Source: Halorhabdus utahensis DSM 12940
GTDB taxonomy: Archaea; Halobacteriota; Halobacteria; Halobacteriales; Haloarculaceae
DNA length: 64,000 nucleotides
NCBI RefSeq assembly: GCF_000023945.1
Contig: NC_013158.1
Span: forward strand, 992,001-1,056,000
Direction: 5' to 3'
Under the pieces are notes generated by a model. That model did not search any database. It was not told where the DNA came from and worked only from the letters and a program-made list of their open reading frames with translations. Position numbers and translations under genes: made by a program. Every line of letters starts with the position of its first letter. Position 1 is the stretch's first letter. Of this stretch, positions 35,015 to 51,197 are shown in pieces.

Positions 35015-37996
35015 TCAGGAACCGCGCGCCCGCTCTTTCAGCGCCTCGAGATGGCCACGCTTCTCGGCGAGGACGACCGCGACGAGCACGACGCCGACGA
35101 TTGCAAGCACGACCGATTGCATTGTCAGCGCACCGAACAGGCTCTCGATGATGCTTCGGATCGCCTCGCCGACGCCGGTTCCGGACAGCTCGTCTTCGGA
35201 CGATTCGAGGGCGGTATCGACGATATCGAGGACTGGAACGCGCGCGATGAGTCCGACTGCAGCGCCGACGATTCCGGCGACGAGCAACGAGTAGCCCGTC
35301 GTCGCGACCGTGCGGTGGATCGACCGGGTGATGGCGTAGACGACGCCGATCAGTGCCAGGAAGACGAGCGGGAGGACCAGCGTGAGCGTCCCGAGCAACC
35401 CGACACCGGTCCGGGCGGTGTTCAGGGCGTCAGCCAGCTCGCCGGTGACGTTCCCGAGTTCGATCCGATCGTCGACCCGGTCGTCGATCCGCTGGCGGAG
35501 TTCCGTAGCGAGTGAATCCGCCAGGGCAGCCTCGGCGTCGTCACGCTGGCTCGCGTACCCGTCATAGGAGAGATCGGGGTGGGTCAGCCCATCGATGACC
35601 GTGTTCTGAAGCGCGACGACGTCATCGAGGGTGTCTTCGGAAACCCGATCGCCGAACTCGTTTCGAATCCGCTCGGCAGCGTCCGCTTTGACGTCCGTGC
35701 CGGCCTCGCTGAGTTTGGTGGTGAGTTCACGATCGAAGGAGTCTTCGAGTGCGGCTTCGGCGTCGTCACGCTGGCTCGCGTAGTCGCTGTACTCGTCGAG
35801 ATCAGGATGGGTCAGCCCGTCGATGACCGTGTTCTGGAGCCCGACGATGTCATCGAGGGTCTCGTTCGACACGGCGTCACCGTACTCCGAACGAACTTGC
35901 TCGGCAGCCTCGGCTTTGATCTCTTCGTTGGCCTCGCGGAGTCGATCCTCGAGCTCGGCGGTGAGAGAGCGTTCCAGGGCGACCTCGTTTTGGTCACGCT
36001 GGCTCGCGTATTCGTCGAAGTCGGTGAGGTCGGGATGAGTCAGCCCGTCGATGACCGTGTTCTGGAGCCCGACGATGTCATCGAGGGTCTCGTTCGACAC
36101 GGAGTCGCCGTACCGGTCGCGGGCCTGCTCGGCAGCGTCTGCCTTGATCTCCTTGTTCGCCTCGAGGAGTCCGTCGTCGAGTTCGCGGTCGAAGGAGTCT
36201 CCCAGGGCAGCTTCGTCGGCGTCACGCTGGCTGGCGTACTCATCGAAGTCGGTGAGGTCGGGATGAGTCAGCCCGTCGATGACCGTGTTCTGGAGCGCGA
36301 TGATGTTGTTGACTGTCTGGTTGTCGACCTCGTCGCCGTACTCGGTGCGGATCTGGTCGGCGGCGGTGGCTTTCATCTCCTCGTTGGCCTCCCGCAGTCC
36401 GTCGTCGAGTTCGCGACCGAACGAGTCCGCAAGCGCCGACTCGTCGGAGTCTCGGCGGGTCGCATACGTGTCGTAGTCCTCGAGATCGGGGTCGGTCAGC
36501 CCGTCGATGGTCGTGTTTTGCAGTGCGGCGATGTCATCGAACGTGTCTTCGGAGACGTTCTCGCCGTAGTTGTCCCGCGCCTGCGCAGTCGCGTTCGCTT
36601 TCAGTTCGGCGTTGATCTCCTCCAGAGCCGTATCGACCTGGGAAGCGGTCGCAAACGACGGTAAATCCTCCCGGACCTGATCGCGGATTTCCTCCCGAAC
36701 CGCCGCGTAGCCGTCGGAATCCTCGTTCAGCCGCTCGATCATGTCGTCGGTGACGTCGATCCGCTGCGTGGCGGATGCGAAGTCGAGTTCCTGGACGATG
36801 TCGACTGTATCGACGACGACCGCGCCGTTCTCATCGACGTCGACCGGGAACTCCTCGACGGCCTGTCTGCGAACGTCGACGCGCACGGCGTCGTACCCCG
36901 ACTGGTTTGCGTTCAGCCGGGCGATCATCCCGTCGTCGACTGTGAAGTCCTGTTCGGCCGTGACGTTCTGTTCCTGGGCGATATCGACCGTGTCGACCAC
37001 GACCTCGCCGTTCTCGTCGAGCGTCACTGGGAACTCCTCGACGGCCTGTCTGCGAACGTCGACGCGCACGGCATCGTACCCTGACTGGTTTGCGTTCAGC
37101 CGGGCGATCATCGCGTCGTCAATCGAGACATCCTGGCTATCAGACGAGAAGTTGGCCTCACGCGCGATATCGACCGTATCGACCTCGACACTCCCGTCCT
37201 CGGCGATATCGAGCGGGATATCCTCCTGGGCGAGTCCTTGGGCACGAATGTCAGCCCGGGCGTCCGCGTACCCGGACTCGTTCGCGTTCATCCGGACCAG
37301 CATCGCGGTGTCGACCGTGACGCCGTTGCGTTCGGCCTCGAACTCCGTGTTTCGGAGGAACGTCTCCGTGTCGACGACGACGGAGCCGTTCGCGTCGATC
37401 GAAACCGGAACGTCCGCCCCCTCGACGGCCTGTGAGCGAAGCTGGATCCTGGTTTGCTCGTAGCCCTCCTGGTTTTCGTTCAGCCGGACGAGCATCTCGC
37501 TGTCGACCGTGACGCCGGCCGTCGTCACGTTGACGCCGCGTTCGTTCGCTAGAGCGACCGTATCAACGGCGATGGTGTCGTTCGCGACGTACTCGCCCAG
37601 CGAGTCCTTGACGGGCACGAGGTCGACCGCCAGGGCGAGTTCCTCGGCGTCACCGTTCAGATAGGCAAGCAATTGCTCGACGTTGGCCGAAACCTCCTCG
37701 TCGACGTACGCCTCCGTCAACGCTGTCTCGGCCGCGGCCCGACTGTCGAAATCCAGCGTGATCCCCGCCGGAATCTCGTCAGCCCGCTCGTCGAGCGTCG
37801 TGTTGAGTTGGTCGCTGATCCGGTCCTGCCCCTCCGTCGCCACGGACGCGTAAACGCCCTCCTCCTCGAACGTATCAGTGAGATGGTCGCTGTCGAGGAC
37901 GGTCCCGTTGACCGCGAACGCGGCACTGGCCCCGGCGATCGAGAGGACCATTATGATCGCCACGACCACGACACCGATGCGTTTGAGCAGACTCAT
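35015..37996 (-). CDS. Giant repeat-built membrane protein, 993 residues
   Basis: From ATG 37994-37996 (MSLLKRIGVVVVAIIMVLSI) an N-terminal helix acts as signal or anchor. A roughly 115-residue non-repeated domain follows. Repeat family A covers residues about 144-446 in five units of about 62 residues, each with VDTVDIA, a D-x-MIARLNANQSGYD core and a VDVRRQAVEEFPV end. Repeat family B covers about 457-833 in five units of about 76 residues, each with EIKADAAEQ, ETLDDIVGLQNTVIDGLTHP and YASQRD. The C-terminus has three predicted helices (about 866-889, 898-920 and 958-977) and a basic tail. The repeat domain is probably outside the cell, with a coiled-coil-like family B. Function unknown. 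Confidence 0.85.
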   Translation of the reverse strand: MSLLKRIGVVVVAIIMVLSIAGASAAFAVNGTVLDSDHLTDTFEEEGVYASVATEGQDRISDQLNTTLDERADEIPAGITLDFDSRAAAETALTEAYVDEEVSANVEQLLAYLNGDAEELALAVDLVPVKDSLGEYVANDTIAVDTVALANERGVNVTTAGVTVDSEMLVRLNENQEGYEQTRIQLRSQAVEGADVPVSIDANGSVVVDTETFLRNTEFEAERNGVTVDTAMLVRMNANESGYADARADIRAQGLAQEDIPLDIAEDGSVEVDTVDIAREANFSSDSQDVSIDDAMIARLNANQSGYDAVRVDVRRQAVEEFPVTLDENGEVVVDTVDIAQEQNVTAEQDFTVDDGMIARLNANQSGYDAVRVDVRRQAVEEFPVDVDENGAVVVDTVDIVQELDFASATQRIDVTDDMIERLNEDSDGYAAVREEIRDQVREDLPSFATASQVDTALEEINAELKANATAQARDNYGENVSEDTFDDIAALQNTTIDGLTDPDLEDYDTYATRRDSDESALADSFGRELDDGLREANEEMKATAADQIRTEYGDEVDNQTVNNIIALQNTVIDGLTHPDLTDFDEYASQRDADEAALGDSFDRELDDGLLEANKEIKADAAEQARDRYGDSVSNETLDDIVGLQNTVIDGLTHPDLTDFDEYASQRDQNEVALERSLTAELEDRLREANEEIKAEAAEQVRSEYGDAVSNETLDDIVGLQNTVIDGLTHPDLDEYSDYASQRDDAEAALEDSFDRELTTKLSEAGTDVKADAAERIRNEFGDRVSEDTLDDVVALQNTVIDGLTHPDLSYDGYASQRDDAEAALADSLATELRQRIDDRVDDRIELGNVTGELADALNTARTGVGLLGTLTLVLPLVFLALIGVVYAITRSIHRTVATTGYSLLVAGIVGAAVGLIARVPVLDIVDTALESSEDELSGTGVGEAIRSIIESLFGALTMQSVVLAIVGVVLVAVVLAEKRGHLEALKERARGS
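35498..36628 (-). repeat. Repeat family B, five coding units of about 228 bp
   Basis: Five tandem units encode residues about 457-833 of the giant membrane protein. The segment for QNTVIDGLTHPDL is nearly identical at DNA level in four units, for example around 35580, 35815, 36045 and 36270, implying recent expansion or gene conversion. Confidence 0.85.
36659..37567 (-). repeat. Repeat family A, five coding units of about 186 bp
   Basis: Five tandem units encode residues about 144-446. The third and fourth (about 36860-37190) are the most alike and share the core MIARLNANQSGYDAVRVDVR, while the outer units have diverged. Confidence 0.82.
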
Positions 37997-38289: not shown

Positions 38290-38913
38290 ATGAGTTACGA
38301 TACCGAGCATGTACGAAACGCAGCGGATCCGCCAGGGATAATCACTGGTATTCCAACGTTTGCCGAATTACTCGATAATGCCGCACTAGCTGGTCTCTAC
38401 ACTACAATAAGACAGTCTTCGACCGCAACTGGTCCTGAACTCGTCAAAACTTCGGACGTCTCGAAGAAGACAGTATACGACTATCTACACAAATTGGAGC
38501 GAGCCGGCTTGATACGGAAGACCGGCGATGATGGGGGCACTGCCAGATACGTCGCTGAAGGGTTCGAACTGACAGTGACAGTCCGTGAAACAGCAGTGAC
38601 AATCACACCGGAACTTATCGAGGTCATCGCCCACAGGAACGACTACCCGCCTATCGAGCGTGTGCTCAACGAGCGCGGAATCACCACGTTCGCTCTCGTT
38701 TACGATCTCGTCAAAGCACATAGTGAGGGCGACGTCACAATTCGGCAAATCGCCGATCTCACGGACCTCGCTCCGGGAACGACATATGATCTCGTTGACG
38801 CGCTCTATTCGGTTCTCTCGCTTGGTGACGATGAATCGAGTCCGACGACATATACGCCAGCTGATTTCGATGCGGAAGGAAACGATTTGCTTGTGGAAAT
38901 GGACGACGAGTGA
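38290..38913 (+). CDS. HTH regulator, probable antitoxin of a PIN toxin
   Basis: 207 residues. A winged HTH is clear: TSDVSKKTVYDYLHKLERAG followed by LIRKTGDDGGTARYVAEGFE as the wing. The C-terminal half is an all-alpha domain with a second DNA-binding-like stretch (IRQIADLTDLAPGTTYDLVD). The TVYDYLxxLExAxLI pattern recurs in the HTH gene at 62944, which is also followed by a PIN gene. It lies 15 nt upstream of its PIN partner, and the two are surely co-transcribed. Confidence 0.8.
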   Translation: MSYDTEHVRNAADPPGIITGIPTFAELLDNAALAGLYTTIRQSSTATGPELVKTSDVSKKTVYDYLHKLERAGLIRKTGDDGGTARYVAEGFELTVTVRETAVTITPELIEVIAHRNDYPPIERVLNERGITTFALVYDLVKAHSEGDVTIRQIADLTDLAPGTTYDLVDALYSVLSLGDDESSPTTYTPADFDAEGNDLLVEMDDE

Positions 38914-38928
38914 ATCTCGTAGTGATCG

Positions 38929-39489
38929 ATGTATACTGCAAATATCGCCGACACAGTGATCTTCCGGAGTTTGGGAAAGCATCCCAATTCGCGACTAAAA
39001 GCGCTTGCGTCAGCCCTCGAAGAAGCGGGGACAGCGATCTGGGTTCCCCCAGCAGTGTACCACGAACTGACGGATCCAGCGAGTACTGACTCGCCGAGGA
39101 ATCCATACCTGGATCCAGCGATCGAAGCGGGGTGGGTCCGGGTAGCGACACCACTTCCAGGGGATCGAAACGCTGGGTTCGATAGTCACGGCGACCCAGT
39201 CAAAAACGCACGCGTTGTCGCTGACGAGTTTCTCAATCAGCAGAGCAAGTATCCGGAAACGAACAACTGGCAGGACGCCGCGATCGTTGCCTTGGCAGTC
39301 CGCCTCTTTGAGGAGAACACACGAATCCGCGTGATAACCCACACGGCGGACCAGAATCTCGCACGAGCATGCGCCCGGATCCCGCCGGAGTTCGGCTACT
39401 ACGATATCGAGTCCCGATATTACAACCCGCCACAGACAGCGAAGACCGAGTTTCCCACTGTCGATCAGCTCACGTGGCGTGGTCGATGA
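38929..39489 (+). CDS. PIN-domain ribonuclease, probable VapC-like toxin
   Basis: 186 residues from ATG 38929. The PIN acidic residues are in place: IADTVIFRSLGKHP (first Asp), VPPAVYHELTDP (Glu), NWQDAAIVALAVRL (Asp) and VITHTADQNLARAC (final Asp). A 50-residue insertion between the first two motifs and the last pair (PYLDPAIEAGWVRVATPLPG) is typical of the haloarchaeal subgroup. Presumed Mg2+-dependent RNase controlled by the preceding HTH protein; toxin activity is inferred from the layout, not shown. Confidence 0.82.
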   Translation: MYTANIADTVIFRSLGKHPNSRLKALASALEEAGTAIWVPPAVYHELTDPASTDSPRNPYLDPAIEAGWVRVATPLPGDRNAGFDSHGDPVKNARVVADEFLNQQSKYPETNNWQDAAIVALAVRLFEENTRIRVITHTADQNLARACARIPPEFGYYDIESRYYNPPQTAKTEFPTVDQLTWRGR

Positions 39490-40013: not shown

Positions 40014-41111
40014 TCATCCTGCCCCGTCGCTTGCGACGTCAACCCAGAGCGCGAGCCACCGGTAGGCCGACTCCGTCGAGGGATCGGCCGGTGGGTCACC
40101 GCGATACACCTGGTAGGTGAGTCGAAGATCGTCGCCGGCGAAGGGCGGCGCAACCGTGTGCTCCTGCAGCCAGGTCTCGTTGTGGGCCAGCGAGGTGCGG
40201 AAGCGATCGAGTTCGACGGCCCGATCGACGCGGATCGACATGTTGGTCGCCCGCGTCGCGTTCTGTGCAGTCCGATTGACCCGGGTCGAGCCATTTTCGA
40301 GCAACGTCACCTCCTGGAGTTCGACTACGATGGTGTAGTTGGTCGGCTCGTGCTCGTGGTTGGACACGCCGACGAGCAGTGACTGGGGTTCGCCGACGGT
40401 GAAGTTCGTCGGATAGTTGTCCGCAACGAGGTCGCCATCGTCGGATTCCGTCAGCAGGTACGCTTCAGTGAACGCTTCGCCCTGTTTCGGGACGGCGACG
40501 GCGTAGGCCACACTCGCTGTCGCGAGCAGAATACTAATGACGAGCAAGACATTCAACGCAGCGTCCGTCCGGCTGTTCGGTTCGAACAGTTCTTCGCCCG
40601 CACTGTCGATCCACTGGCGGTATGGAACTCGAAAGCGTTCTTCCGGCGGCAGTTCCTGGCGTCGGTAGGCTGCGATTGCCCCGGTCACGATAGTGAATAT
40701 GCTCACCGTCACCATGATCGGGACGAGCCGGATTCCGAACGGCGTGAAATTGAGGACCAGTCCGAGCAGGGGAACGATGGCGATACTCAACCCGAACGAA
40801 AGGGCGACACGTTCGATGCCGTCGATTCCACCCTCGGCCGTGGACGGAGCGGCGTGTGATTCATCGGCCGTGTCCTCGGTGTCGACAGCCCGTTGTCCAC
40901 GTTCCGGGAACAGTGCCGCGATGAATGCGTACCCAGGAATGAACAGCACGAACGGAAGGCCGAACACGACACGAAGAGGGGTGTCCTGGACGAACGGAAG
41001 AAACACGGAGAGGTTGACGGCGCCGACGAACGCGAACACGAACGCGAGATCGAACGGCAAGCGCCGAACGTTCTCGGGTAACAGTAATCGCCAGTCTGAC
41101 CCGTGTGCCAT
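40014..41111 (-). CDS. DUF1616 membrane protein
   Basis: 365 residues. The N-terminal half has five hydrophobic helices with LRVVFGLPFVLFIPGYAFIA and GIERVALSFGLSIAIVPLLG, both strong DUF1616 signatures. The C-terminal roughly 150 residues form a beta-rich extracytoplasmic domain with several N-x-S/T sequons (NYTIVV, NGST, NRTA, NMSI, NETW). DUF1616 genes often accompany N-glycosylation and S-layer loci in haloarchaea, and this one borders the surface-glycan island. Confidence 0.82.
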   Translation of the reverse strand: MAHGSDWRLLLPENVRRLPFDLAFVFAFVGAVNLSVFLPFVQDTPLRVVFGLPFVLFIPGYAFIAALFPERGQRAVDTEDTADESHAAPSTAEGGIDGIERVALSFGLSIAIVPLLGLVLNFTPFGIRLVPIMVTVSIFTIVTGAIAAYRRQELPPEERFRVPYRQWIDSAGEELFEPNSRTDAALNVLLVISILLATASVAYAVAVPKQGEAFTEAYLLTESDDGDLVADNYPTNFTVGEPQSLLVGVSNHEHEPTNYTIVVELQEVTLLENGSTRVNRTAQNATRATNMSIRVDRAVELDRFRTSLAHNETWLQEHTVAPPFAGDDLRLTYQVYRGDPPADPSTESAYRWLALWVDVASDGAG

Positions 41112-41598
41112 TATGAGAGGTCAGTGATTCCGGCCCAATAAGACAGTCGATTGTTCGATTGTCGGCTGGAGGGAATCGAGTGACAATCTCGGCTGTATCT
41201 TTTGCACAACTGTGTCCAGGGAGGCAGACATCAATGATGAACCTGCAAGCAGGCCAGAGAGACCTGGCGATAGTCTCTATCCTCGCAAACTCTCAAGAGA
41301 AGTAGATATAGTATTAAAATTTCCCACATATAACATATTGTATATAGAGTTGTTCCAACGGGAACTACTATATGAGCGGGGCTGAAAACAGTCATTGAGT
41401 GAGGGTAATGACCTATTATATCTCTATCTCCGACAGGATCCATGCGGTAAGCGATCACTGTAATGTACATCGAGCCCTCAAGCGGTTCTGGATGTCCGTC
41501 GATCGTTCAAACAACCCGCTACCGACGGACCGGCAGAGAAACCAGTCGTTGTCACGACAGAACATCAGCGGAACGACACCACAAACGTTGCAGCTATC
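41112..41598. other. AT-rich leader of the glycan operon, no gene seen
   Basis: 487 bases without a convincing frame. The segment 41296-41375 is markedly AT-rich (ATATAGTATTAAAATTT, CATATAACATATTGTATAT) and contains a small GTTCC/GGAAC hairpin at about 41353-41367. It marks the composition change between the DUF1616 gene and the glycan island and probably holds the operon promoter. Confidence 0.6.
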
Positions 41599-42945
41599 AT
41601 GACCACGGGATCAAAACATCGGAAGAGTGAAACGATCCGGGTAGATGGAAAAATCGAGGGCAGGGGATCAGCGACAGACGATGCGCTGGTCGGGATCCGC
41701 GTCCTCCCGGGTGTTGACGAGGATCATCTCGCAGGTTCGATACTCCGGGCACGGAAAGCCGGTCACGACGTCGTAGTCTGTGCGTGTGGCGATGTCGGAG
41801 AAGCGGTGCTGACGTTCGCGGACGAGCTCAGTGTCCCGGTATTGTACACTGACTCCAACAGGCTGGACGCGGCAGATGCACTCGTTCCTCACGCACGGGA
41901 GGCTGGCTATCCAGGCGTCCTCTGGCAAGCCGATCCCGCCTCGCGAGTCGACTTCAAAGCGAGCGTAGATGCGCTGCAAGCAAGTAATCGATACGCAACC
42001 GAGGTCACGTCTGTGTGCTCGGAACCATCTGGCGGTGTGGACAGCACTTCCCAGGAGGGGATTGTCGTCGGCATCCCCGCCTACAACGAGGAGGTGGGCA
42101 TCGGCAGCGTCGTCGTCGAGGCCAATCAGTATGCCGACGAGGTCGTCGTCGTCGACGACGGAAGTTCCGATCGGACCGTCCAGGTAGCGGACCGTTCCGG
42201 CGCGACCGTGATCGAACACGCGGAAAACCGTGGGAAAGGCGCGGCGTTGCGGACGCTCTTCGAGGGAGTTGAGCTCGACGGCGGTGACGTGCTCGTGACG
42301 ATCGACGGCGACGGCCAACACGTCCCCGCGGAGATCGAGGACGTCGCCGAGCCCGTCCAGGAGGGCGACGCCGATATAGTGATCGGGAGTCGGTATCTCG
42401 ACGGCGACGACGAGACCCCGCTGTATCGGCGCTTCGGGCAGACTGTGCTGGACACGGTGACTCCAGGAGGGGCCAATGGAGACCTCTCGGACACACAGAG
42501 CGGGTTCCGGGCCTTCTCGCCGACAGCAGTGGAGAAGATGGCGATCAGGACGGACGGGATGGGCGTCGAATCGGAGATGATCTCGGAAGCGAGTTCGAAC
42601 GGGTTGGACATTACGGAGGTTCCGATCGACGTGCGATACGACGGGATCGACGGACAGACACACAACCCGCTCCGTCACGGGCTCGAGGTGCTGAACTTCC
42701 TCATCAAGCTGATCCGCGATCGCCATCCTCTGTTGTTCTTTGCACTGCCGGGAGTGGTTCTGTCACTGATCGGGAGTATAGTGGGATTCGACGCCGTCAT
42801 CATCTATCAGAACCAAGGTGTGTTCTACCCGACGAAAGTCATGGTGGCCGGCTTCGCAACGATCCTGGGTATCTTGAGTATCTTTACGGGACTTACGCTG
42901 AACCAGTTCCAGAACATGATGCATTCGATGGCTGAGGGAGAGTGA
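41599..42945 (+). CDS. AglJ-like family 2 glycosyltransferase with extra N-terminal domain
   Basis: 448 residues. Residues about 25-140 form a Rossmann-like extra domain (VGIRVLPGVDEDHLAGSILR, DALVPHAREAGYPGVLW). The GT2 domain follows: VVGIPAYNEEVGIGSVV, VVVVDDGSSDRT, LVTIDGDGQH (DxD-type) and SGFRAFS. Two helices near the C-terminus (LLFFALPGVVLSLIGSIVGF and MVAGFATILGILSIFTG) anchor it. Haloferax AglJ-type enzymes load the first sugar onto dolichol phosphate for N-glycosylation. First gene of a tightly spaced operon. Confidence 0.88.
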   Translation: MTTGSKHRKSETIRVDGKIEGRGSATDDALVGIRVLPGVDEDHLAGSILRARKAGHDVVVCACGDVGEAVLTFADELSVPVLYTDSNRLDAADALVPHAREAGYPGVLWQADPASRVDFKASVDALQASNRYATEVTSVCSEPSGGVDSTSQEGIVVGIPAYNEEVGIGSVVVEANQYADEVVVVDDGSSDRTVQVADRSGATVIEHAENRGKGAALRTLFEGVELDGGDVLVTIDGDGQHVPAEIEDVAEPVQEGDADIVIGSRYLDGDDETPLYRRFGQTVLDTVTPGGANGDLSDTQSGFRAFSPTAVEKMAIRTDGMGVESEMISEASSNGLDITEVPIDVRYDGIDGQTHNPLRHGLEVLNFLIKLIRDRHPLLFFALPGVVLSLIGSIVGFDAVIIYQNQGVFYPTKVMVAGFATILGILSIFTGLTLNQFQNMMHSMAEGE

Positions 42946-42951
42946 TTGACG

Positions 42952-44058
42952 GTGACTGAAGCGACAGTGGCTATTGCGCTTGGAACCCGTCCGGAAATCA
43001 TCAAGCTCTCTCCCGTGATTCGGGAGTGTGAACGGCGGGACATCAACTACGAATTGATTCACACCGGCCAACACTACTCAGACAATCTGGATCAAGTGTT
43101 TTTCGACCAACTAGAGTTGCCCGATCCGGATCACCACCTGCAGGTGGGTTCGAAGTCCCACGGAAAACAAACTGGGGAGATGATCGCCGGCATCGAGGAT
43201 ATCCTGCTGGATGTCGAACCGGAGGTTCTGTTGGTGCAGGGTGATACGAATTCGGTCCTGGCAGGCGCGATCGCGGCAAGCAAACTCGATGTCGCACTCG
43301 GCCACGTCGAAGCCGGCCTTCGTAGTTTCGACCGTGAGATGCCCGAGGAGACCAATCGAGTCCTCACGGATCACGTTGGGGACTATCTGTTCGCTCCGAC
43401 CGAGACGTCCGCGGACTATCTTCGTGATGAGGGGATCGACGACAAGCGAATCCATGTCACCGGAAACACGGTCGTTGACGCGGTTGGACGCCATCGCGAA
43501 TTGGCTGCCGAGAAGAGTTCCGTCCTTGATGATCTTGGGGTTGCAGTCGGTGAGTTTGCACTGTTGACGGCCCACCGTGCGGAGAACGTGGACGAACGCG
43601 ATCGGTTTGCGGAGTTGCTGACCGGCGTTGCGCGTGCGGCGTCGAGTCTCGATCTCGATGTCGTGTACCCGATCCATCCACGAGCAGAGAGTCGTCTCAA
43701 TGAATTCGATCTGGACGTTCCGGATCGCATTCACCTGGTGGAGCCCCAGGAGTACCTCGACTTTCTCGAGCTAGAGCGAACGGCGCGGCTGATTTTCACG
43801 GATTCGGGGGGCGTGCAGGAAGAAGCCTGTATCCTGGGCGTTCCCTGTGTAACATTACGTGAGAATACGGAGCGCCCAGAAACGGTTGACGTGGGGGCGA
43901 ACCGACTGGTCGGGACTGATCCGCAAACGATCCACGACGGAGCGTTAGCAATGACGAATTCAACAACAGACTGGGAAAATCCGTTTGGCGATGGGACTGC
44001 ATCGGAACAAATAATGGCTACCCTGCGGCAGACACATTCAGTGAGGACTATACAATGA
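42952..44058 (+). CDS. wecB: UDP-N-acetylglucosamine 2-epimerase (non-hydrolysing)
   Basis: 368 residues from GTG 42952, six bases after the preceding stop, with GAGGGAG as ribosome-binding site; TTG 42946 is also in frame. Motifs: ALGTRPEIIKLSPVI, LVQGDTNSVLAGAIAA, GHVEAGLRSFDREMPEETNR, TDSGGVQEEACILGVPCVTLR. It converts UDP-GlcNAc to UDP-ManNAc. Its stop overlaps the wecC start (ATGA), so the pathway is encoded in order. Confidence 0.95.
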   Translation: MTEATVAIALGTRPEIIKLSPVIRECERRDINYELIHTGQHYSDNLDQVFFDQLELPDPDHHLQVGSKSHGKQTGEMIAGIEDILLDVEPEVLLVQGDTNSVLAGAIAASKLDVALGHVEAGLRSFDREMPEETNRVLTDHVGDYLFAPTETSADYLRDEGIDDKRIHVTGNTVVDAVGRHRELAAEKSSVLDDLGVAVGEFALLTAHRAENVDERDRFAELLTGVARAASSLDLDVVYPIHPRAESRLNEFDLDVPDRIHLVEPQEYLDFLELERTARLIFTDSGGVQEEACILGVPCVTLRENTERPETVDVGANRLVGTDPQTIHDGALAMTNSTTDWENPFGDGTASEQIMATLRQTHSVRTIQ

Positions 44059-45356
44059 GTACGATTTGCGTCCACGGACTGGGGTACATCGGATTACCGA
44101 CGGCGGCGATGCTTGCGAACCATGGACATCAGGTAACAGGATACGATTCGGACGAAACAGTTGTGCAAAGCCTGGCAAACGGAGATATCCATATAGACGA
44201 GCCGGGACTTCGAGCTTTTGTCACACAAGCTCTGGAATCCGGTCATCTCACCGTGAGTACTGAGGTCGAGGCCGCAAAATATCAGATCGTCGCAGTACCA
44301 ACCCCGTTCGATGACGAAACCAAGGAAGCCACACTCGATTATGTTAAAGAAGCCGGCGAAGCGATCGCACCACATCTACGGGAAGGTGACACGGTCGTGC
44401 TTGAATCGACCGTGCCACCGGGGACGACAGTTGAGGTCCTCCAGCCGACACTGGAGAAGTCAGGGTTGACAGCAGGGACTGACTTCGCGCTCGTACACTG
44501 CCCAGAGACGGTACTCCCCGGAGACATTATTACGGAACTCAGGCAGAACGATCGCGTTTTGGGTGGCGTCAACGGTGTCTCGACACAAGCAGCGGTTCGC
44601 CTGTACGAGTCGTTTGTCGAAGGAGACATCTATACTGCCGAGAATGCGACTACAGCTGAGTTCGTCAAACTCATCCAGAACACGTTCCGAGACGTCAACA
44701 TCGCGCTGGCCAACGAAATCGCTCTCGTCGGTGAGGATTACGGGGTGGACTCGCGGGAAGCCATCGAGATGGCGAACACGCACCCACGGGTCAACATCCA
44801 CCAACCTGGTCCCGGCGTCGGAGGACATTGTCTCCCAATTGACCCGTGGTTCCTCGGATACGACTCCGAACAGCTCGATCTGATCAGCACTGCGCGAAAT
44901 ATTAATGACAGCATGCCCGGGCACGTTATCGAGATGCTTCGGGAGGAACTGGGTTCACTCGAAGGGAAACGTATCGCGCTGCTTGGCGTCGCGTACAAGG
45001 GCAACGTGGGCGATACCCGGCAGAGTCCGACGCTTGATCTAGCCGCTGAATTACAGGAAGCTGTTGCTGACGAGCAGAAGGCAGCAGCTGATGGCGGTAG
45101 ATCCCAGTCAGCTGGGGGTATCGACATTCGATTGCACGATCCATACGTCGAGGATCAGACGTTGGACCTCATTGGACTCGAAGAGTCGGTTTCCGATGCC
45201 GATGCGGTCGTGATTGCAACGGATCACGACGAGTACGAGGAATTACCCATCGATAGATTTGAAGAACAGATGGCAGGCTCGCTTCTCGTTGATACGAAGG
45301 CTGTCCTCGATGTAGATGTCTGGACCAAGGAAGGCTTCACGGTAGAGCGAATCTAA
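44055..45356 (+). CDS. wecC: UDP-N-acetyl-D-mannosamine dehydrogenase
   Basis: 433 residues. The NAD-binding N-terminus is VHGLGYIGLPTAAMLANHGH. ESTVPPGTT, HCPETVLPG and the catalytic cysteine motif PGPGVGGHCLPIDPWFL follow; the C-terminal domain has GVAYKGNVGDTRQSP. It oxidises UDP-ManNAc to UDP-ManNAcA with two NAD+. Coupled by four overlapping bases to wecB. A Ser/Ala/Gly-rich insertion around residue 345 is unusual for the family and probably a loop. Confidence 0.94.
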   Translation: MSTICVHGLGYIGLPTAAMLANHGHQVTGYDSDETVVQSLANGDIHIDEPGLRAFVTQALESGHLTVSTEVEAAKYQIVAVPTPFDDETKEATLDYVKEAGEAIAPHLREGDTVVLESTVPPGTTVEVLQPTLEKSGLTAGTDFALVHCPETVLPGDIITELRQNDRVLGGVNGVSTQAAVRLYESFVEGDIYTAENATTAEFVKLIQNTFRDVNIALANEIALVGEDYGVDSREAIEMANTHPRVNIHQPGPGVGGHCLPIDPWFLGYDSEQLDLISTARNINDSMPGHVIEMLREELGSLEGKRIALLGVAYKGNVGDTRQSPTLDLAAELQEAVADEQKAAADGGRSQSAGGIDIRLHDPYVEDQTLDLIGLEESVSDADAVVIATDHDEYEELPIDRFEEQMAGSLLVDTKAVLDVDVWTKEGFTVERI

Positions 45357-45363
45357 CACCGGT

Positions 45364-46425
45364 ATGTCTGATACGAATACAGCGTGGGTGGACCTGGTGA
45401 GTCCATCCCACCCATTCTTTTTCAAGTCACTACTGGATGAGCTCCCGGAACTGAATCGGAACGTGACTGTCCGACAGAAAACAGAAACCGTTGGATTGGC
45501 CGATTCTGCCGGATTTGATTACGACATTTTGGGTCGAGACTTCGATAATACATTCCTGCGAAAAGTTGGAATTCCACTTCGAACAATACAAGCGACACTT
45601 CAGGCCCCGGATGCCGACATCTCGCTGTCCTCCCGAAATGCGATGTGTGTCCTCGCTTCGAAGGCTCGTGGAATCCCCTCTATCCATTTCACTGATAACG
45701 ATATTACGGCTCATGTGGATGGATTACACATTGAAAAACTGTACAATCGATTCGAAGCTCAAGCAACTCATAACGTCGTCCCAGCTGCATTTGATACCAA
45801 TGAATTGACTCGCTGGGGAGCTACTTCTGAGCAAATCCACACGTACGACGGGTACAAGGAAGACATCTATATCGCCAACTTTGAACCAGATACAACGTTC
45901 CAAGACCAACTTCCGTTCAATGACTACATTGTGATCCGTCCCGAAGCACTAGGTGCCGCATACGTCGATACCGATCAATCGATCATCCCAGAATTACTTG
46001 AAAGAGCAACGGATGAAGGACTTAACGTAGTTTACCTCCCTCGCGGACGAGATGATGAAGAATATGCAGAGCCATTCTCATCTTCTGGTGTATATATTCC
46101 CTCGGAAACTTTGGACGGACTTCAACTCGCATGGTACTCGGATGGGGTTCTTACTGGTTCTGGAACGATGGCTCGAGAGGCAGCGTGTATGGGGATACCA
46201 GCTGTTTCCTTTTTCCCTGAGACTCCTCTTTCCGTAGATCAGGAGATGATTAACGATGGCATGATTTTCCATTCTCGTGACTCCCAGGCAATTGTTGAAT
46301 TCATTGACTCACAATCTACACGAGATCGGGAAGCAGATATTTCTCGATCCGAAGACGTCCTTAGTGATGTTGTTGCTACGGTCAACTCAATAATCAACTC
46401 CGAAACCACCAAAAACGAACTATGA
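45364..46425 (+). CDS. DUF354-family glycosyltransferase-like protein
   Basis: 353 residues. The N-terminus AWVDLVSPSHPFFFKSLLDEL, then IPSIHFTDNDITAHVDGLHI, PRGRDDEEYAEPFSS and GVLTGSGTMAREAACMGIPA fit DUF354 (GT-B fold, UDP-glycosyltransferase/epimerase-like). GTMAREAA is the family's donor-binding motif. Probably adds a sugar to the glycan made by this operon. Seven bases after wecC and overlapping the next gene by four. GC content is clearly lower from here on. Confidence 0.83.
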   Translation: MSDTNTAWVDLVSPSHPFFFKSLLDELPELNRNVTVRQKTETVGLADSAGFDYDILGRDFDNTFLRKVGIPLRTIQATLQAPDADISLSSRNAMCVLASKARGIPSIHFTDNDITAHVDGLHIEKLYNRFEAQATHNVVPAAFDTNELTRWGATSEQIHTYDGYKEDIYIANFEPDTTFQDQLPFNDYIVIRPEALGAAYVDTDQSIIPELLERATDEGLNVVYLPRGRDDEEYAEPFSSSGVYIPSETLDGLQLAWYSDGVLTGSGTMAREAACMGIPAVSFFPETPLSVDQEMINDGMIFHSRDSQAIVEFIDSQSTRDREADISRSEDVLSDVVATVNSIINSETTKNEL

Positions 46426-47357
46426 AAGTACTCAATCTGATCAATGCACGGAAGCCGTTTCTAATGGACCAGATTAATGCGTTGGAAGAAGCGGGTATAG
46501 AGAGTGACACGATCTGTGTTCCTGGTGATTTCAATGCTGACGGATCAGAATTCACAAGTCGTTCTATATTGGATTATGCTAAGTTTTATCCGAAAATACT
46601 ATCCAAAATTTCAAATAAATATGACATTATCCATGCTCACTATGGATTAACCGCTCCATTTGCTCTGGCACAGCCATACCGACCAGTCGTTCTGTCGTTG
46701 TGGGGTCGAGATCTATTTGGTCCAGCCGCTCCGTTGAGTAAGGTTTGTGCTAGATTCAGCGATGAAGTCATTGTTCGAAGTGAGGAGATGCGTGAAGAGT
46801 TAAGCCAGCCTGCTCATATTGTCGAGCGTGGCGTTGATCTAGAGAAATTTGAGCCGATGGACCAAAAACAGGCACGAACAAAAGTCAACTGGTCAAAAGA
46901 TGGGAAGCATATTTTATTCCCATACTCACCTCAACGAGAAAAGAAGAACTACCCACTTGCAGAAGAAGTTGTTGGAAAAGTAAACTCAATGTTAGACGAA
47001 AATGTAATTCTACATGCAATTTTTAATGAACCCCATGAGAAGATCCCCATCTATATGAACGCAGCAGACCTCCTCCTCATGACATCTCGCCCAAAAAGCG
47101 AGGGGTCACCAAACACTGTGAAAGAGGCTCTCGCTTGTAATACTCCAGTTGTTTCTACAGATGTGGGAAATGTGTCTGATCTTATTGGATATCTTCCGAA
47201 TTATCATGTTTGCTATAGTACATCCCAGCTCGTTAGTAAAACGATTGCTGTTCTGAATGCAGAGACTAATGGAACTGGGCGTGAACGGGCCAAAGAGCTC
47301 TCTTGGTCGAACACCACGGATTCTCTACTCTCTGTGTATAGTTTGGCCAAAAGTTAG
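46422..47357 (+). CDS. GT4-family glycosyltransferase
   Basis: 311 residues, compact GT-B. DIIHAHYGLTAPFALAQPYR in the N-domain, VVLSLWGRDLFGP, IVERGVDLEKFEPM, LLMTSRPKSEGSPNTVKEAL and NTPVVSTDVGNVSDLI are GT4 hallmarks. Last gene of the left glycan arm; ATGA overlap with the DUF354 gene. A decayed paralogue lies on the opposite strand at 57803-59560, which helps define the family's full length. AT-rich codon use suggests lateral origin. Confidence 0.86.
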   Translation: MKVLNLINARKPFLMDQINALEEAGIESDTICVPGDFNADGSEFTSRSILDYAKFYPKILSKISNKYDIIHAHYGLTAPFALAQPYRPVVLSLWGRDLFGPAAPLSKVCARFSDEVIVRSEEMREELSQPAHIVERGVDLEKFEPMDQKQARTKVNWSKDGKHILFPYSPQREKKNYPLAEEVVGKVNSMLDENVILHAIFNEPHEKIPIYMNAADLLLMTSRPKSEGSPNTVKEALACNTPVVSTDVGNVSDLIGYLPNYHVCYSTSQLVSKTIAVLNAETNGTGRERAKELSWSNTTDSLLSVYSLAKS

Positions 47358-47374
47358 GTGAAAATATAAAGGAA

Positions 47375-47610
47375 TTAAAAGTTCATTCTCAGTTAGATAC
47401 GGCCAGATGTTTGGTTCGTCAATCGAGTTCAGTCCTCATGGAAGGTAGCTTTTCAGCGTCGAAAAATCTGGCATAAGACGGTACTTGAACCACTCTTGGA
47501 GCGGGTCCCAGCATCTTTCGATGGCGGACAATTCAGGGTGTTTTGGTGGGAAGTAACACACTTCGAGATCGTCCCCGCCTACGCGCGAGACCGAATTATC
47601 TCCGATAGTT
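47375..47610 (-). mobile_element. IS630-type transposase remnant (3' end)
   Basis: The minus strand encodes LEVCYFPPKHPELSAIERCW and then DPLQEWFKYRLMPDFSTLKS YLP, the C-terminal DDE region of IS630/DDE_3 transposases (the catalytic E is in AIERCW). A TGA at about 47438 replaces the expected arginine codon; in the same frame GLNSIDEPNIWPYLTE continues beyond it. Everything upstream of about residue VGGDD is missing, so this is a dead fragment. Confidence 0.75.
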
Positions 47611-47632
47611 TTTGATCAAGTGACACAGCGAG

Positions 47633-47815
47633 TTAGCTACGCCAAGAAGTGGTGCAAGCAGCTCCCTTACTTTCAGAAGATATCTTGAGTGATATTGCTA
47701 CAGCCTGCTCCTCGTGACGGGCTTGGAACTCATCAGAGAGGAACTCGGAGGGAAACAGTGTAGTAAGCCGACGCATGATTCTCAACGAGGAGGCGTCAGT
47801 GTGCACAGCGGACAC
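47633..47815 (-). mobile_element. Internally deleted IS4/ISH-type transposase remnant
   Basis: The frame reads LRIMRRLTTLFPSEFL followed directly by SDEFQARHEEQA. From memory these two segments are far apart in full-length haloarchaeal IS4-type transposases. The junction falls at a shared EFL word, suggesting deletion by short homology. Flanking sequence to 48040 has no gene and includes probable IS end sequence around 47878-47930. Family assignment is tentative. Confidence 0.55.
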
Positions 47816-48089
47816 CTCTTCATTCCTCTCGAAATGTAGCCTCGATAAGCCGCTGCTGTCACGTGGTTCGTCTCTTAGCTAAAATCGGATCGGGGACCCC
47901 CTTGCACACGGTCATGAAAAACGGCGGTGACTTTACGAGCCCTTCTCGGACGATTGGTTTCGCTAGGCGATAGGTAAGGGGCGATTGGGTTGTTTGATAC
48001 GTATCTGTTGATGTCTGGCATCGCCGTCACGGTTCGTTGACTAACTATAACCCAATGGTTATCTAAAAGCGGGTCATTTCCGTACGCAA

Positions 48090-49760
48090 ATGCGAGCCAG
48101 GCGAGTTGCAATACTTTTCTCCATTTTGACTGTCTGGGTTGTGACGGCCTTGGTTATCGGTCTTAAGCTCTCTCCTATCGACGGGTATAAACTTTCACCC
48201 TACTCCTTCTGGTTACTCCCTCTCTTGGGGTTCGGACTTATCGCGTCATCCATTGCCACAATCTTCGCTCCAAAATCACCAGCACGATGGCTGTTACCAG
48301 CGTTCCCTCTCGTGATCGTCGCACTCCCAATCCTCCGAGGGTACTTCTACTTTGGTGAAGGCGACCCCCTATACCACCTCGGAGCTGTGCGACAATTGGT
48401 CGAAGGGAGCCTGCCCGCAGAGGCCGAATTCTACCCAGCCCTGCATTATTTAGCAACGATTACATTAGAGGTGACTGGACTCGAGGCGAGGCAATCACTC
48501 CTGTTGGTGATGGTCGTCGCGTTTGCTCTTTGGATACTCGCCGTCCCACTGTTGGCGAGGGCGGTGACCGGCACAAAACTCTACCTCGGAGTCATCGCTG
48601 CAGCCGCGCTACTGCCAATTACACCGATTTCGACGTTCCCGAGACCTCATCCAGCCACGGCCGCAATCTTTCTCACTCCCGTGATCTTACTCCCTGCATT
48701 TTTGCCGAAAATCTCCCGAAAGCAACGTTCGGTAGTTTATGTAACTCTATTCTTGGCCGCGATCCTCTATCACCCATTCGTTGCGCTCGTCACCGTGGGA
48801 ATGATGTTCGTCTGGACAAACTGGGGAATCGGGGACTCACCGAGCGCACTCCGTCCAGCACTACTCGTTGGCTCTATCATCGCCGTCTTGGCTTGGTTAC
48901 TACACTTTTCACAGTTCCAAGGGGCATTGGTCAGTTCGATTATCGGGATACTCCAAGGGAGTGTCGGAGCGGATACTGCAAGCAGAGTAGGATCGTTACA
49001 GATCCTCGGCCTGTCACTCGTAGAGTACGTGGCGCGAGTGGGCGGAAAATACCTCATTTTCGGAACTCTGAGCATCATCGCGGTCATCGCTTCGCTCCGA
49101 CGTAGAAATTGGAAACTAGTCATCTTCACACTCGGGTCGGTGCCGGCGATACTCGGGGTCATCTTGTTCTTTTCAACGGGCAGTATCGGTCTCTGGACGC
49201 GCATTTTCGGCTTATTCATGCTCATTGGGACGATTCTCGCAGCGGTTGGGGCCTCCGAAGTGGGTGAGTTATTCGGTTCAGAAAATTCGAGAATTCGCCA
49301 TACAGTATCAGCTTTGGTCCTGGTACTCGCCGTCGGGCTGGCTCTTCCCACAATCCTTCCTGCCCCCTATACACTCCAGGCCAACGACCAGGTCATGGAA
49401 AGCACCTACAGCGGGTATCACACGAGCTTCGAGTATGGAGACGATTCGACTCCATGGTACGAAATTCGATCGCCAGTTCGGCGTTATCACTCAGCGATCT
49501 ACGGGCCTGATCAGACAACAGGTATGGAACTTGCATCCGGTCAAGGAAGGTACTCCCGAGTGCCAGACCATTTCAACAATCGGTCATTGGACGAAATCGA
49601 GGCGGGCTATCTAGCTACAACGTCCGCCGACTATGAACGAGATGTCAATCTGTTCGATGGGTTCAGGTATAACGAGACCGACTTCGAATATTTGTCATCT
49701 AGCCCCTGTGTGAATAAACTAATTGACACCGGCGGATTCTCTTTATACAGGATATGCTAA
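48090..49760 (+). CDS. Polytopic membrane protein of the glycan island, GT-C-like
   Basis: 556 residues with about eleven hydrophobic helices and a roughly 120-residue extracytoplasmic C-terminus (SYSGYHTSFEYGDDS, NNRSLDEIEAGYLATTSADY). Between the third and fourth helices is YFYFGEGDPLYHLGAVRQL, an acidic-plus-histidine loop of the type that marks the active site of GT-C enzymes, which use lipid-linked sugars. Together with the context this suggests a dolichol-phosphate-sugar transferase or polymerase, but homology is not certain. It starts at ATG 48090, right after the IS graveyard. Confidence 0.72.
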   Translation: MRARRVAILFSILTVWVVTALVIGLKLSPIDGYKLSPYSFWLLPLLGFGLIASSIATIFAPKSPARWLLPAFPLVIVALPILRGYFYFGEGDPLYHLGAVRQLVEGSLPAEAEFYPALHYLATITLEVTGLEARQSLLLVMVVAFALWILAVPLLARAVTGTKLYLGVIAAAALLPITPISTFPRPHPATAAIFLTPVILLPAFLPKISRKQRSVVYVTLFLAAILYHPFVALVTVGMMFVWTNWGIGDSPSALRPALLVGSIIAVLAWLLHFSQFQGALVSSIIGILQGSVGADTASRVGSLQILGLSLVEYVARVGGKYLIFGTLSIIAVIASLRRRNWKLVIFTLGSVPAILGVILFFSTGSIGLWTRIFGLFMLIGTILAAVGASEVGELFGSENSRIRHTVSALVLVLAVGLALPTILPAPYTLQANDQVMESTYSGYHTSFEYGDDSTPWYEIRSPVRRYHSAIYGPDQTTGMELASGQGRYSRVPDHFNNRSLDEIEAGYLATTSADYERDVNLFDGFRYNETDFEYLSSSPCVNKLIDTGGFSLYRIC

Positions 49761-49773
49761 AGCGTGAACTCGA

Positions 49774-50037
49774 TTGGTGGGCCCCAGAAGGTTCTACTAC
49801 ATGGGCAACGCCAACGACAAGCGGCTCGGAAATTTCGTTGACGGTCGGGAGACCAACAATTGCGATCCATCCATTACGGGCGACAGGAACGGCTCAGCTG
49901 TCTACATCGGAAAAGGATTGGACGATACACATGCCGTCAATGATAGTTTCTACAAAGCCGTCGCTGGCGCATGGACAGATCGGTTATCGATCACTGCTGA
50001 GGACTCGCAGACTAAGAGCCAAATTCGTGAGAGATAG
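49774..50037 (+). CDS. Possible 87-residue fragment, no recognised family
   Basis: The frame beginning at 49774 (GTG) gives a plausible globular stretch, for example FYYMGNANDKRLGNFVDGRE and SAVYIGKGLDDTHAVNDSFY, rich in Asn/Asp/Gly. It overlaps a longer alternative frame and its codon pattern is ambiguous. It may be the end of a lost extracellular protein gene between the GT-C-like and GT61 genes. Confidence 0.3.
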   Translation: MVGPRRFYYMGNANDKRLGNFVDGRETNNCDPSITGDRNGSAVYIGKGLDDTHAVNDSFYKAVAGAWTDRLSITAEDSQTKSQIRER

Positions 50038-50072
50038 TAACTTACATTAGCCCCATCTTATATTGCTGATGT

Positions 50073-51197
50073 ATGATTGGGAGAAAGTACCTTAGTCAGG
50101 TTCTCAACCTTTCGTCTACCCTTCTATCTACGGTTGGGAAGCCGGTGGTGATGCAGCGTCCCGAACTGAAACAGTATGCACGGGAACGGGGTCAGTTATT
50201 CCACTTTGGTTCATCTGAGACCTATTCTTTCGGCCCGCCCCAATATCCCGACGAAGTGCTGTACTCCCTGCAACGCAGATTTGGCGAATATCAAACTCCG
50301 AAGCCGTTCGTAGCCGAAGTGCGCGACGTTTCACTAATCGGTCTCTATCCAATTCCGTTCAAGAGGGGAAATGCCCTTGTAGAACCTGTCGTCAGCGAAC
50401 GGAACTTAATCCTCAATCTCTTCTATTCGGTTGTTGACTCACGCCTGCAACACCGCAGCCTGACGTCGAAGGATTTCGATTGCGCCTGCCTCCTATTCAA
50501 CTCCCAGAGCCGGGGGGTGTTTCATTGGATGGTAGAGGACGCCTTGAGAGCCGAAGGCGTCCTGAGATACGAAGAGAAAACGGGTCGCCGTCCGACTCTT
50601 ATTATACCCCCAAACCCGAAATCGTGGCAGACCGAGACACTGGAACTGCTTGGATTCGAGTCGGAAGACTGGGTCGAATGGGACGCTTTTAGAGGGAAGG
50701 TGGACCGATTGGTCGTCCCCTCCGTCCGGCGGATATACGATGATGGAGTGGTCTCCCCGGCACAAACGGAGTGGTTCAGTGAGCGGATGGTGGGCGGTGC
50801 AGAAGGCCAAGTGGAGGCTTCCAAAACCTCCTCACGGGTGTATATCTCCCGTGACGATGCCGGGAGACGTCGGTTGACGAACGAAGACGATCTTATGGAT
50901 CAACTCGGTGATCTCGGGTTCGAACGCCACTATCTTGAGCGCATGTCCACCGCCCAGATCGTGAGCCTGTTCAATAACGCCAACATAATAGTCGCTCCTC
51001 ACGGAGCAGGCTTGACCAACATCATGTTCGCAACGGATGCCAGCGTCATCGAACTGCGCCCCAACGACTCCTATTCCTGGGTATATTACGTATTGAGCGA
51101 GCAAAATGGACTCGACTACTGCTACGTGATGGGTGACGACGATAAGGAAGGAACGGACTTCCGGGTAGAGCCTGCGAAGGTCATTGATGCTCTGTAA
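50073..51197 (+). CDS. Family 61 glycosyltransferase (DUF563)
   Basis: 374 residues. SRGVFHWMVEDALRAEGVL, RVYISRDDAGRRRLTNEDDL and MSTAQIVSLFNNANIIVAPHGAGLTNIMFA are diagnostic of GT61/DUF563, the last being the conserved 'PHGAGL' sugar-nucleotide site. Members transfer pentoses or hexoses to glycans; no membrane helix is seen. Probably modifies the surface polysaccharide. It stands alone on the + strand, facing the beta-helix gene. Confidence 0.87.
   Translation: MIGRKYLSQVLNLSSTLLSTVGKPVVMQRPELKQYARERGQLFHFGSSETYSFGPPQYPDEVLYSLQRRFGEYQTPKPFVAEVRDVSLIGLYPIPFKRGNALVEPVVSERNLILNLFYSVVDSRLQHRSLTSKDFDCACLLFNSQSRGVFHWMVEDALRAEGVLRYEEKTGRRPTLIIPPNPKSWQTETLELLGFESEDWVEWDAFRGKVDRLVVPSVRRIYDDGVVSPAQTEWFSERMVGGAEGQVEASKTSSRVYISRDDAGRRRLTNEDDLMDQLGDLGFERHYLERMSTAQIVSLFNNANIIVAPHGAGLTNIMFATDASVIELRPNDSYSWVYYVLSEQNGLDYCYVMGDDDKEGTDFRVEPAKVIDAL

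Follow-up and report, generated by a model that had tools for sequence, protein, structure and literature searches.

A 993-residue membrane protein with two repeat arrays

The window, by which we mean the whole stretch of 64,000 nucleotides analysed here, comes from the salt-loving archaeon Halorhabdus utahensis and carries on its minus strand a gene (35015..37996) for a putative four-helix surface protein of 993 aa; the original prediction had given no strand for this open reading frame. The likely start codon is the ATG at 37996, because close homologues share an MS(L/V)LK start at the same place. Hydropathy places TM1 (residues 9-27, 37916..37972) ahead of the repeats and TM2 (residues 871-889, 35330..35386), TM3 (residues 904-922, 35231..35287) and TM4 (residues 959-977, 35066..35122) behind them, which bears out the proposed layout of one N-terminal and three C-terminal helices. 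The N-terminus, the TM2-TM3 loop and the C-terminus each carry a charge of +2, the TM3-TM4 loop one of -6. With basic termini predicted inside, a basic TM2-TM3 loop and an acidic TM3-TM4 loop, the repeats should face the cell exterior, and this outside topology is supported by the sequence signals. Directly after TM1 follows a membrane-proximal N-domain (residues 30-140, 37577..37909) that is conserved throughout the protein family described below, as judged from the match to positions 1-184 of the family HMM and from the alignment.

Between the N-domain and TM2 lie two blocks of repeats. The spacing of the A motif (64, 64, 61 and 62 residues) gives five A units of about 62 residues, that of the B motif (76 residues, four times) five B units. 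Independently of motif spacing, Tandem Repeats Finder returned an array of 228-bp units (4.0 copies; score 914) as well as one of 183-bp units (1.8 copies, 91% matches; score 575), the latter corresponding to A3/A4. Module HMMs built from other proteins recovered all ten units, five A followed by five B, at 18-51 bits, and hence the repeats exceed chance. The unit numbers and lengths that had been read from the sequence earlier are confirmed. A1 (residues 141-196, 37409..37576) and A2 (residues 205-260, 37217..37384) are defined by the module HMM, whereas A3 (residues 269-324, 37025..37192) and A4 (residues 330-385, 36842..37009), a recent duplicate pair, are also seen by Tandem Repeats Finder. 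A4 further lies within a confident fragment model, as do A5 (residues 392-447, 36656..36823) and B1 (residues 458-533, 36398..36625), the two units at the proposed tip, and B2 (residues 534-609, 36170..36397). B2 to B5 were also compared codon by codon; B3 (residues 610-685, 35942..36169) and B4 (residues 686-761, 35714..35941) contain helices of the whole-protein model, and B5 (residues 762-837, 35486..35713) is the membrane-proximal unit.

Ongoing recombination between units had been suggested from a peak of DNA identity around the segment coding LQNTVIDGLTHPDL, and the codons agree with this. Among the B units of the window protein DNA identity indeed peaks over this stretch, third codon positions included, which are alike in 103 of 139 amino-acid-identical pairs; in the relative L064 the corresponding figure for this stretch is 31 of 76. 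This likeness supports a homogenisation between units. B2, B3 and B4 have runs of identical codons in common, and B2-B5 share the variant THPDL where most units of relatives read TDPDL or otherwise. Both observations indicate gene conversion or recent unequal crossing-over.

An undescribed haloarchaeal family

We retrieved 37 further haloarchaeal proteins, mostly of 400-660 aa with four predicted membrane helices, and most of them contain one A and one B module. Judged by profile matches, the window protein is a member of this undescribed membrane-protein family, and its A and B repeats are expansions of two adjacent modules that are single-copy in most members. The window protein scores 144.6 bits over positions 1-184 and 160.8 bits over positions 194-416 of an HMM built from twelve single-copy proteins. 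Along the protein the matches are ordered N-domain plus A, three times A, A plus B, three times B, and finally B plus the C-terminal domain. Halovenus carboxidivorans (L034) and the rest of the family match over their full length and have the module order of the window protein (N-domain, A, B, membrane domain), although most members have one A and one B instead of five and five.

The distribution of the family in haloarchaea is patchy, with members in 33 of the 146 genomes that represent the taxonomic family and in 36 of 293 in a sample of the order. A narrower profile search of genome contigs gave H. carboxidivorans as the sole match. Among other species of the window's genus, three genomes (G001-G003) contain only the single-copy form and one (G005) no convincing member. 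In L043 and L045 of the Halovenus group (genomes G133 and G138) module A, or both modules, went undetected with the module HMMs, while the membrane parts do match. Plasmid-borne relatives of one single-copy member were not found. In some relatives a long low-complexity tail rich in Q, G and P extends from the C-terminus (L005, L007, L009) or the N-terminus (L010, L011), in either case on what is predicted to be the cytoplasmic side; the window protein is without such a tail.

When 38 members were scanned, no described Pfam or NCBIfam family exceeded its curated cut-off, with lone sub-threshold matches. Weak matches were all that Pfam, NCBIfam and PHROGs yielded for the repeats, and a sequence profile search of the PDB yielded nothing convincing for the family. 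A match to PRK08699 (1.4e-5, cut-off 481 bits, 41 residues in a B helix) was taken as compositional. A literature search found no paper on this haloarchaeal 4-TM family. The original prediction, which recognised no known family, is thus right as to described families, but an undescribed one exists. The two repeats had also been called unrelated. This is true of A versus B as far as can be seen, but each has a related single-copy module in other family members.

Equal numbers of A and B units

For counting, module HMMs were built solely from single-copy members, and marginal extra matches of 3-4 bits were ignored. The A/B count is 5/5 in the window protein. Two species of its genus have 4/4 each, the Halovenus group includes one relative with 3/3 and one with 2/2 (H. 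carboxidivorans), and 29 other family proteins have 1/1. Two proteins from another family of haloarchaea (L076 and L048, genomes G046 and G171) have three B units and, counted by eye and with cross-checked lineage-specific HMMs, about three units of an A-like kind, the third being weak. Their units are shorter, about 39 aa for A-like and about 70 aa for B. In a core-region tree the window clade groups with the Halovenus group and these two proteins are far away; therefore, the second expansion looks separate.

All A units precede all B units, and in this order ordinary tandem duplication alters just one of the two numbers. Since it cannot produce equal counts in such an arrangement, the copy numbers of A and B appear coupled. 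Multi-copy proteins occur in just two lineages, and hence the equal counts amount to few independent observations. A comparison of the 5/5 with the 4/4 species identifies orthologues for A1, A2, B1 and the final unit of each array; the additional copies are internal, one A belonging to the A3/A4 pair and one B to the B2/B3 zone. Nested hairpin pairing would put A3/A4 opposite B3/B2, and the positions of the extra copies thus agree with such pairing. A single event, in which an A and a B were inserted together at the tip, was ruled out, because A5 and B1 are orthologous to the tip units of the 4/4 species and the extra copies are internal. The DNA of the A3/A4 pair is more alike than that of any B pair, and therefore the A and B duplications probably took place at different times. 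For a time in the past the A and B counts were probably unequal.

Predicted structure

The AF2 models rest on two aligned sequences. For the whole protein the model is poor (pLDDT 55.8, pTM 0.42), with the TMs and the N-domain below 50, but much of the B region reaches a pLDDT of 70-90. Here long helices (581-629, 660-705 and 736-781) take turns with 19-residue helices and are predicted to span the unit borders as in spectrin-type rods, and the B units are thus modelled as a spectrin-like rod. From 46 minus 19 residues, at 1.5 Å each, we estimate that every B unit contributes a rise of about 4 nm. The fragment A4-A5-B1-B2 was predicted with a pLDDT of 86.9 and a pTM of 0.78. For its 306 residues (d0 about 6.4 Å) arithmetic gives an expected pTM of about 0.55 if B were placed and A unplaced; the model therefore treats A and B as one body and predicts that they form one fold. 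Structure prediction, which had been suggested as a check, hence delivered the helical B rod and a confident A-B fragment, but not the whole protein. Foldseek gave no significant match (best E 0.1 for the whole model, and 0.72 in the PDB and 0.34 in the viral set for the fragment), a result that excludes nothing. A similarity to 14-3-3 proteins (VIA-align Z 5.7 over about 100 residues) was set aside, as it lies within the stated background for helical models.

A proposed membrane-anchored hairpin rod

We propose that the window protein is a membrane-anchored surface hairpin rod of nested A/B storeys that serves as a spacer between the cytoplasmic membrane and the S-layer, and we see the balance tipping slightly towards this reading. 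The chain would leave the membrane after TM1, pass through the conserved membrane-proximal domain and climb the A units, turn at the A5-B1 junction and descend via the B units to the three-helix membrane domain. Each storey would join one A to one B, nested from A1 with B5 to A5 with B1, and a longer rod would therefore need both an added A and an added B. In the B rod a helix of about 46 residues would cross each unit border and alternate with the 19-residue helix. We infer this pairing order and, as an estimate, a rod height of about 20 nm in the window protein compared to about 4 nm in one-storey relatives. Height would be altered by unequal recombination and gene conversion between similar units, and the conserved membrane domain might act as the working base of the strut.

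The haloarchaeal S-layer encloses a pseudo-periplasmic space (PMC8640222), in which such a rod could stand. N-x-S/T sequons are enriched in 29 single-copy ectodomains (65 versus 24.6 expected; reversed motif 31). The window protein has 16 versus 5 expected, a count inflated by repetition. In the window, the other three longest ORFs show no such enrichment. The surface rod of the original prediction is supported by the membrane anchors, the sequon-enriched ectodomain and the well-predicted helical rod.

The A and B arrays might also be independent, consecutive and separately folded segments of an elongated surface protein, with equal counts owing to coincidence or to a general proneness to recombination. 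We regard this as unlikely. In its favour, few independent lineages have multiple copies, the A and B duplications seem unequal in age, and the A-B contacts of the hairpin are predicted from model confidence. Against it, the counts are equal at five levels and in a second lineage, and the A-B fragment has a pTM of 0.78. Pairing of A and B between two molecules, or in a register other than the nested one, would likewise yield equal counts and A-B packing, and membrane proteins with stalks are often dimeric. However, the monomer fragment alone is confidently predicted as one body, and a dimer or another register seems rather improbable to us. The same low probability is given to a role as receptor, adhesin or envelope sensor, with ligand binding by the variable ectodomain and signalling through the membrane domain or a cytoplasmic tail: outside topology, sequons and the long low-complexity tails on the cytoplasmic side of several relatives are compatible with it, but the Pfam and NCBIfam scans recognised no signalling domain, there is no conserved partner gene, and the tip is without a head domain, a mild argument against an adhesin.

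A stand-alone strut fits better than a headed adhesin, since the tip is a mere A5-B1 turn and the N-domain and membrane domain are conserved, while the neighbourhood is not. We therefore infer that the protein most likely keeps cytoplasmic membrane and S-layer apart as a spacer or strut, and is less likely a sensor or adhesin. If the hairpin rod is correct, a protein lacking one A should fail, and one lacking one A and one B should be shorter yet intact.

Tandem-repeat surface proteins normally lengthen via one array. In the window protein two different arrays have apparently been co-selected for equal number, which would make it a natural experiment on whether and how a unit of structure built from two distant segments of a chain can be multiplied. 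Tentatively, and with a confidence that stays a little short of even, we suggest a new repeat-protein architecture, in which two dissimilar, block-ordered arrays have their copy numbers locked by A-B pairing and the rod grows via coupled duplications.

Probable kinship and analogies

The haloarchaeal family is likely a distant relative of an unannotated actinobacterial family. A consensus sequence served as the starting point from which real proteins of the latter were retrieved. Profile comparisons with the actinobacterial alignment gave probabilities of 65-90% (E 6e-5 to 1.8e-6), compared to 0.2-27% in controls, where the 27% stems from one reversed control with a repeat-bearing alignment. 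With 31 single-copy haloarchaeal proteins the probability was 90% (E 1.8e-6; reversed control 0.9%). The alignment is firmest over the C-terminal membrane domain, and the B region aligned loosely and in the widest comparison only. The actinobacterial proteins (Streptomyces WP_331757048.1 and WP_331728010.1; Embleya) share with the haloarchaeal family an N-terminal membrane helix, an ectodomain and C-terminal membrane helices, but unlike the window protein they are about 449 aa long and no repeat expansion was seen. Four of them (L035-L038), from Streptomyces and Embleya plasmid records, are unannotated membrane proteins without a Pfam model. The case defines a family of membrane proteins, probably with a branch in bacteria, that is absent from all databases searched; its place would be the poorly known gap that separates the haloarchaeal membrane from the S-layer.

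Two known systems offer analogies. Spectrin-type repeats resemble the B units in the predicted long border-crossing helix that alternates with a shorter one. However, a spectrin repeat has about 106 residues and a B unit 76, the window protein additionally has the A array, and no Pfam spectrin model was among its matches up to E 1. In the antiparallel arms of SMC/Rad50-type proteins the ascending and descending stretches of one chain match in length around a turn, as the up and down parts of the rod would by analogy. These arms consist of single helices, whereas the window protein is anchored in the membrane and built from repeat domains of two kinds.

Gene neighbourhood

No operon partner is conserved, and the neighbours vary between lineages. 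The family gene has orc1/cdc6 beside it only in the window and in G004 and G006; in some others its neighbour is a gene whose sequence, judged by eye, looks like that of a deoxyhypusine synthase. In the close relative G004 the gene directly upstream (L063, 7801-9054) resembles by eye an IS200/IS605-type TnpB. In the window, 38290-39489 encodes a winged-helix regulator (TrmB/IclR-like) and, directly after it, a small protein whose PIN-like score is weak (E 0.14); the two might form a toxin-antitoxin-like pair. An apparent glycan or protein-glycosylation cluster lies at 40014-51197 and comprises a DUF1616 protein, glycosyltransferases, a UDP-GlcNAc 2-epimerase, a UDP-glucose/GDP-mannose dehydrogenase, a DUF354 protein and a glycosyltransferase 61.
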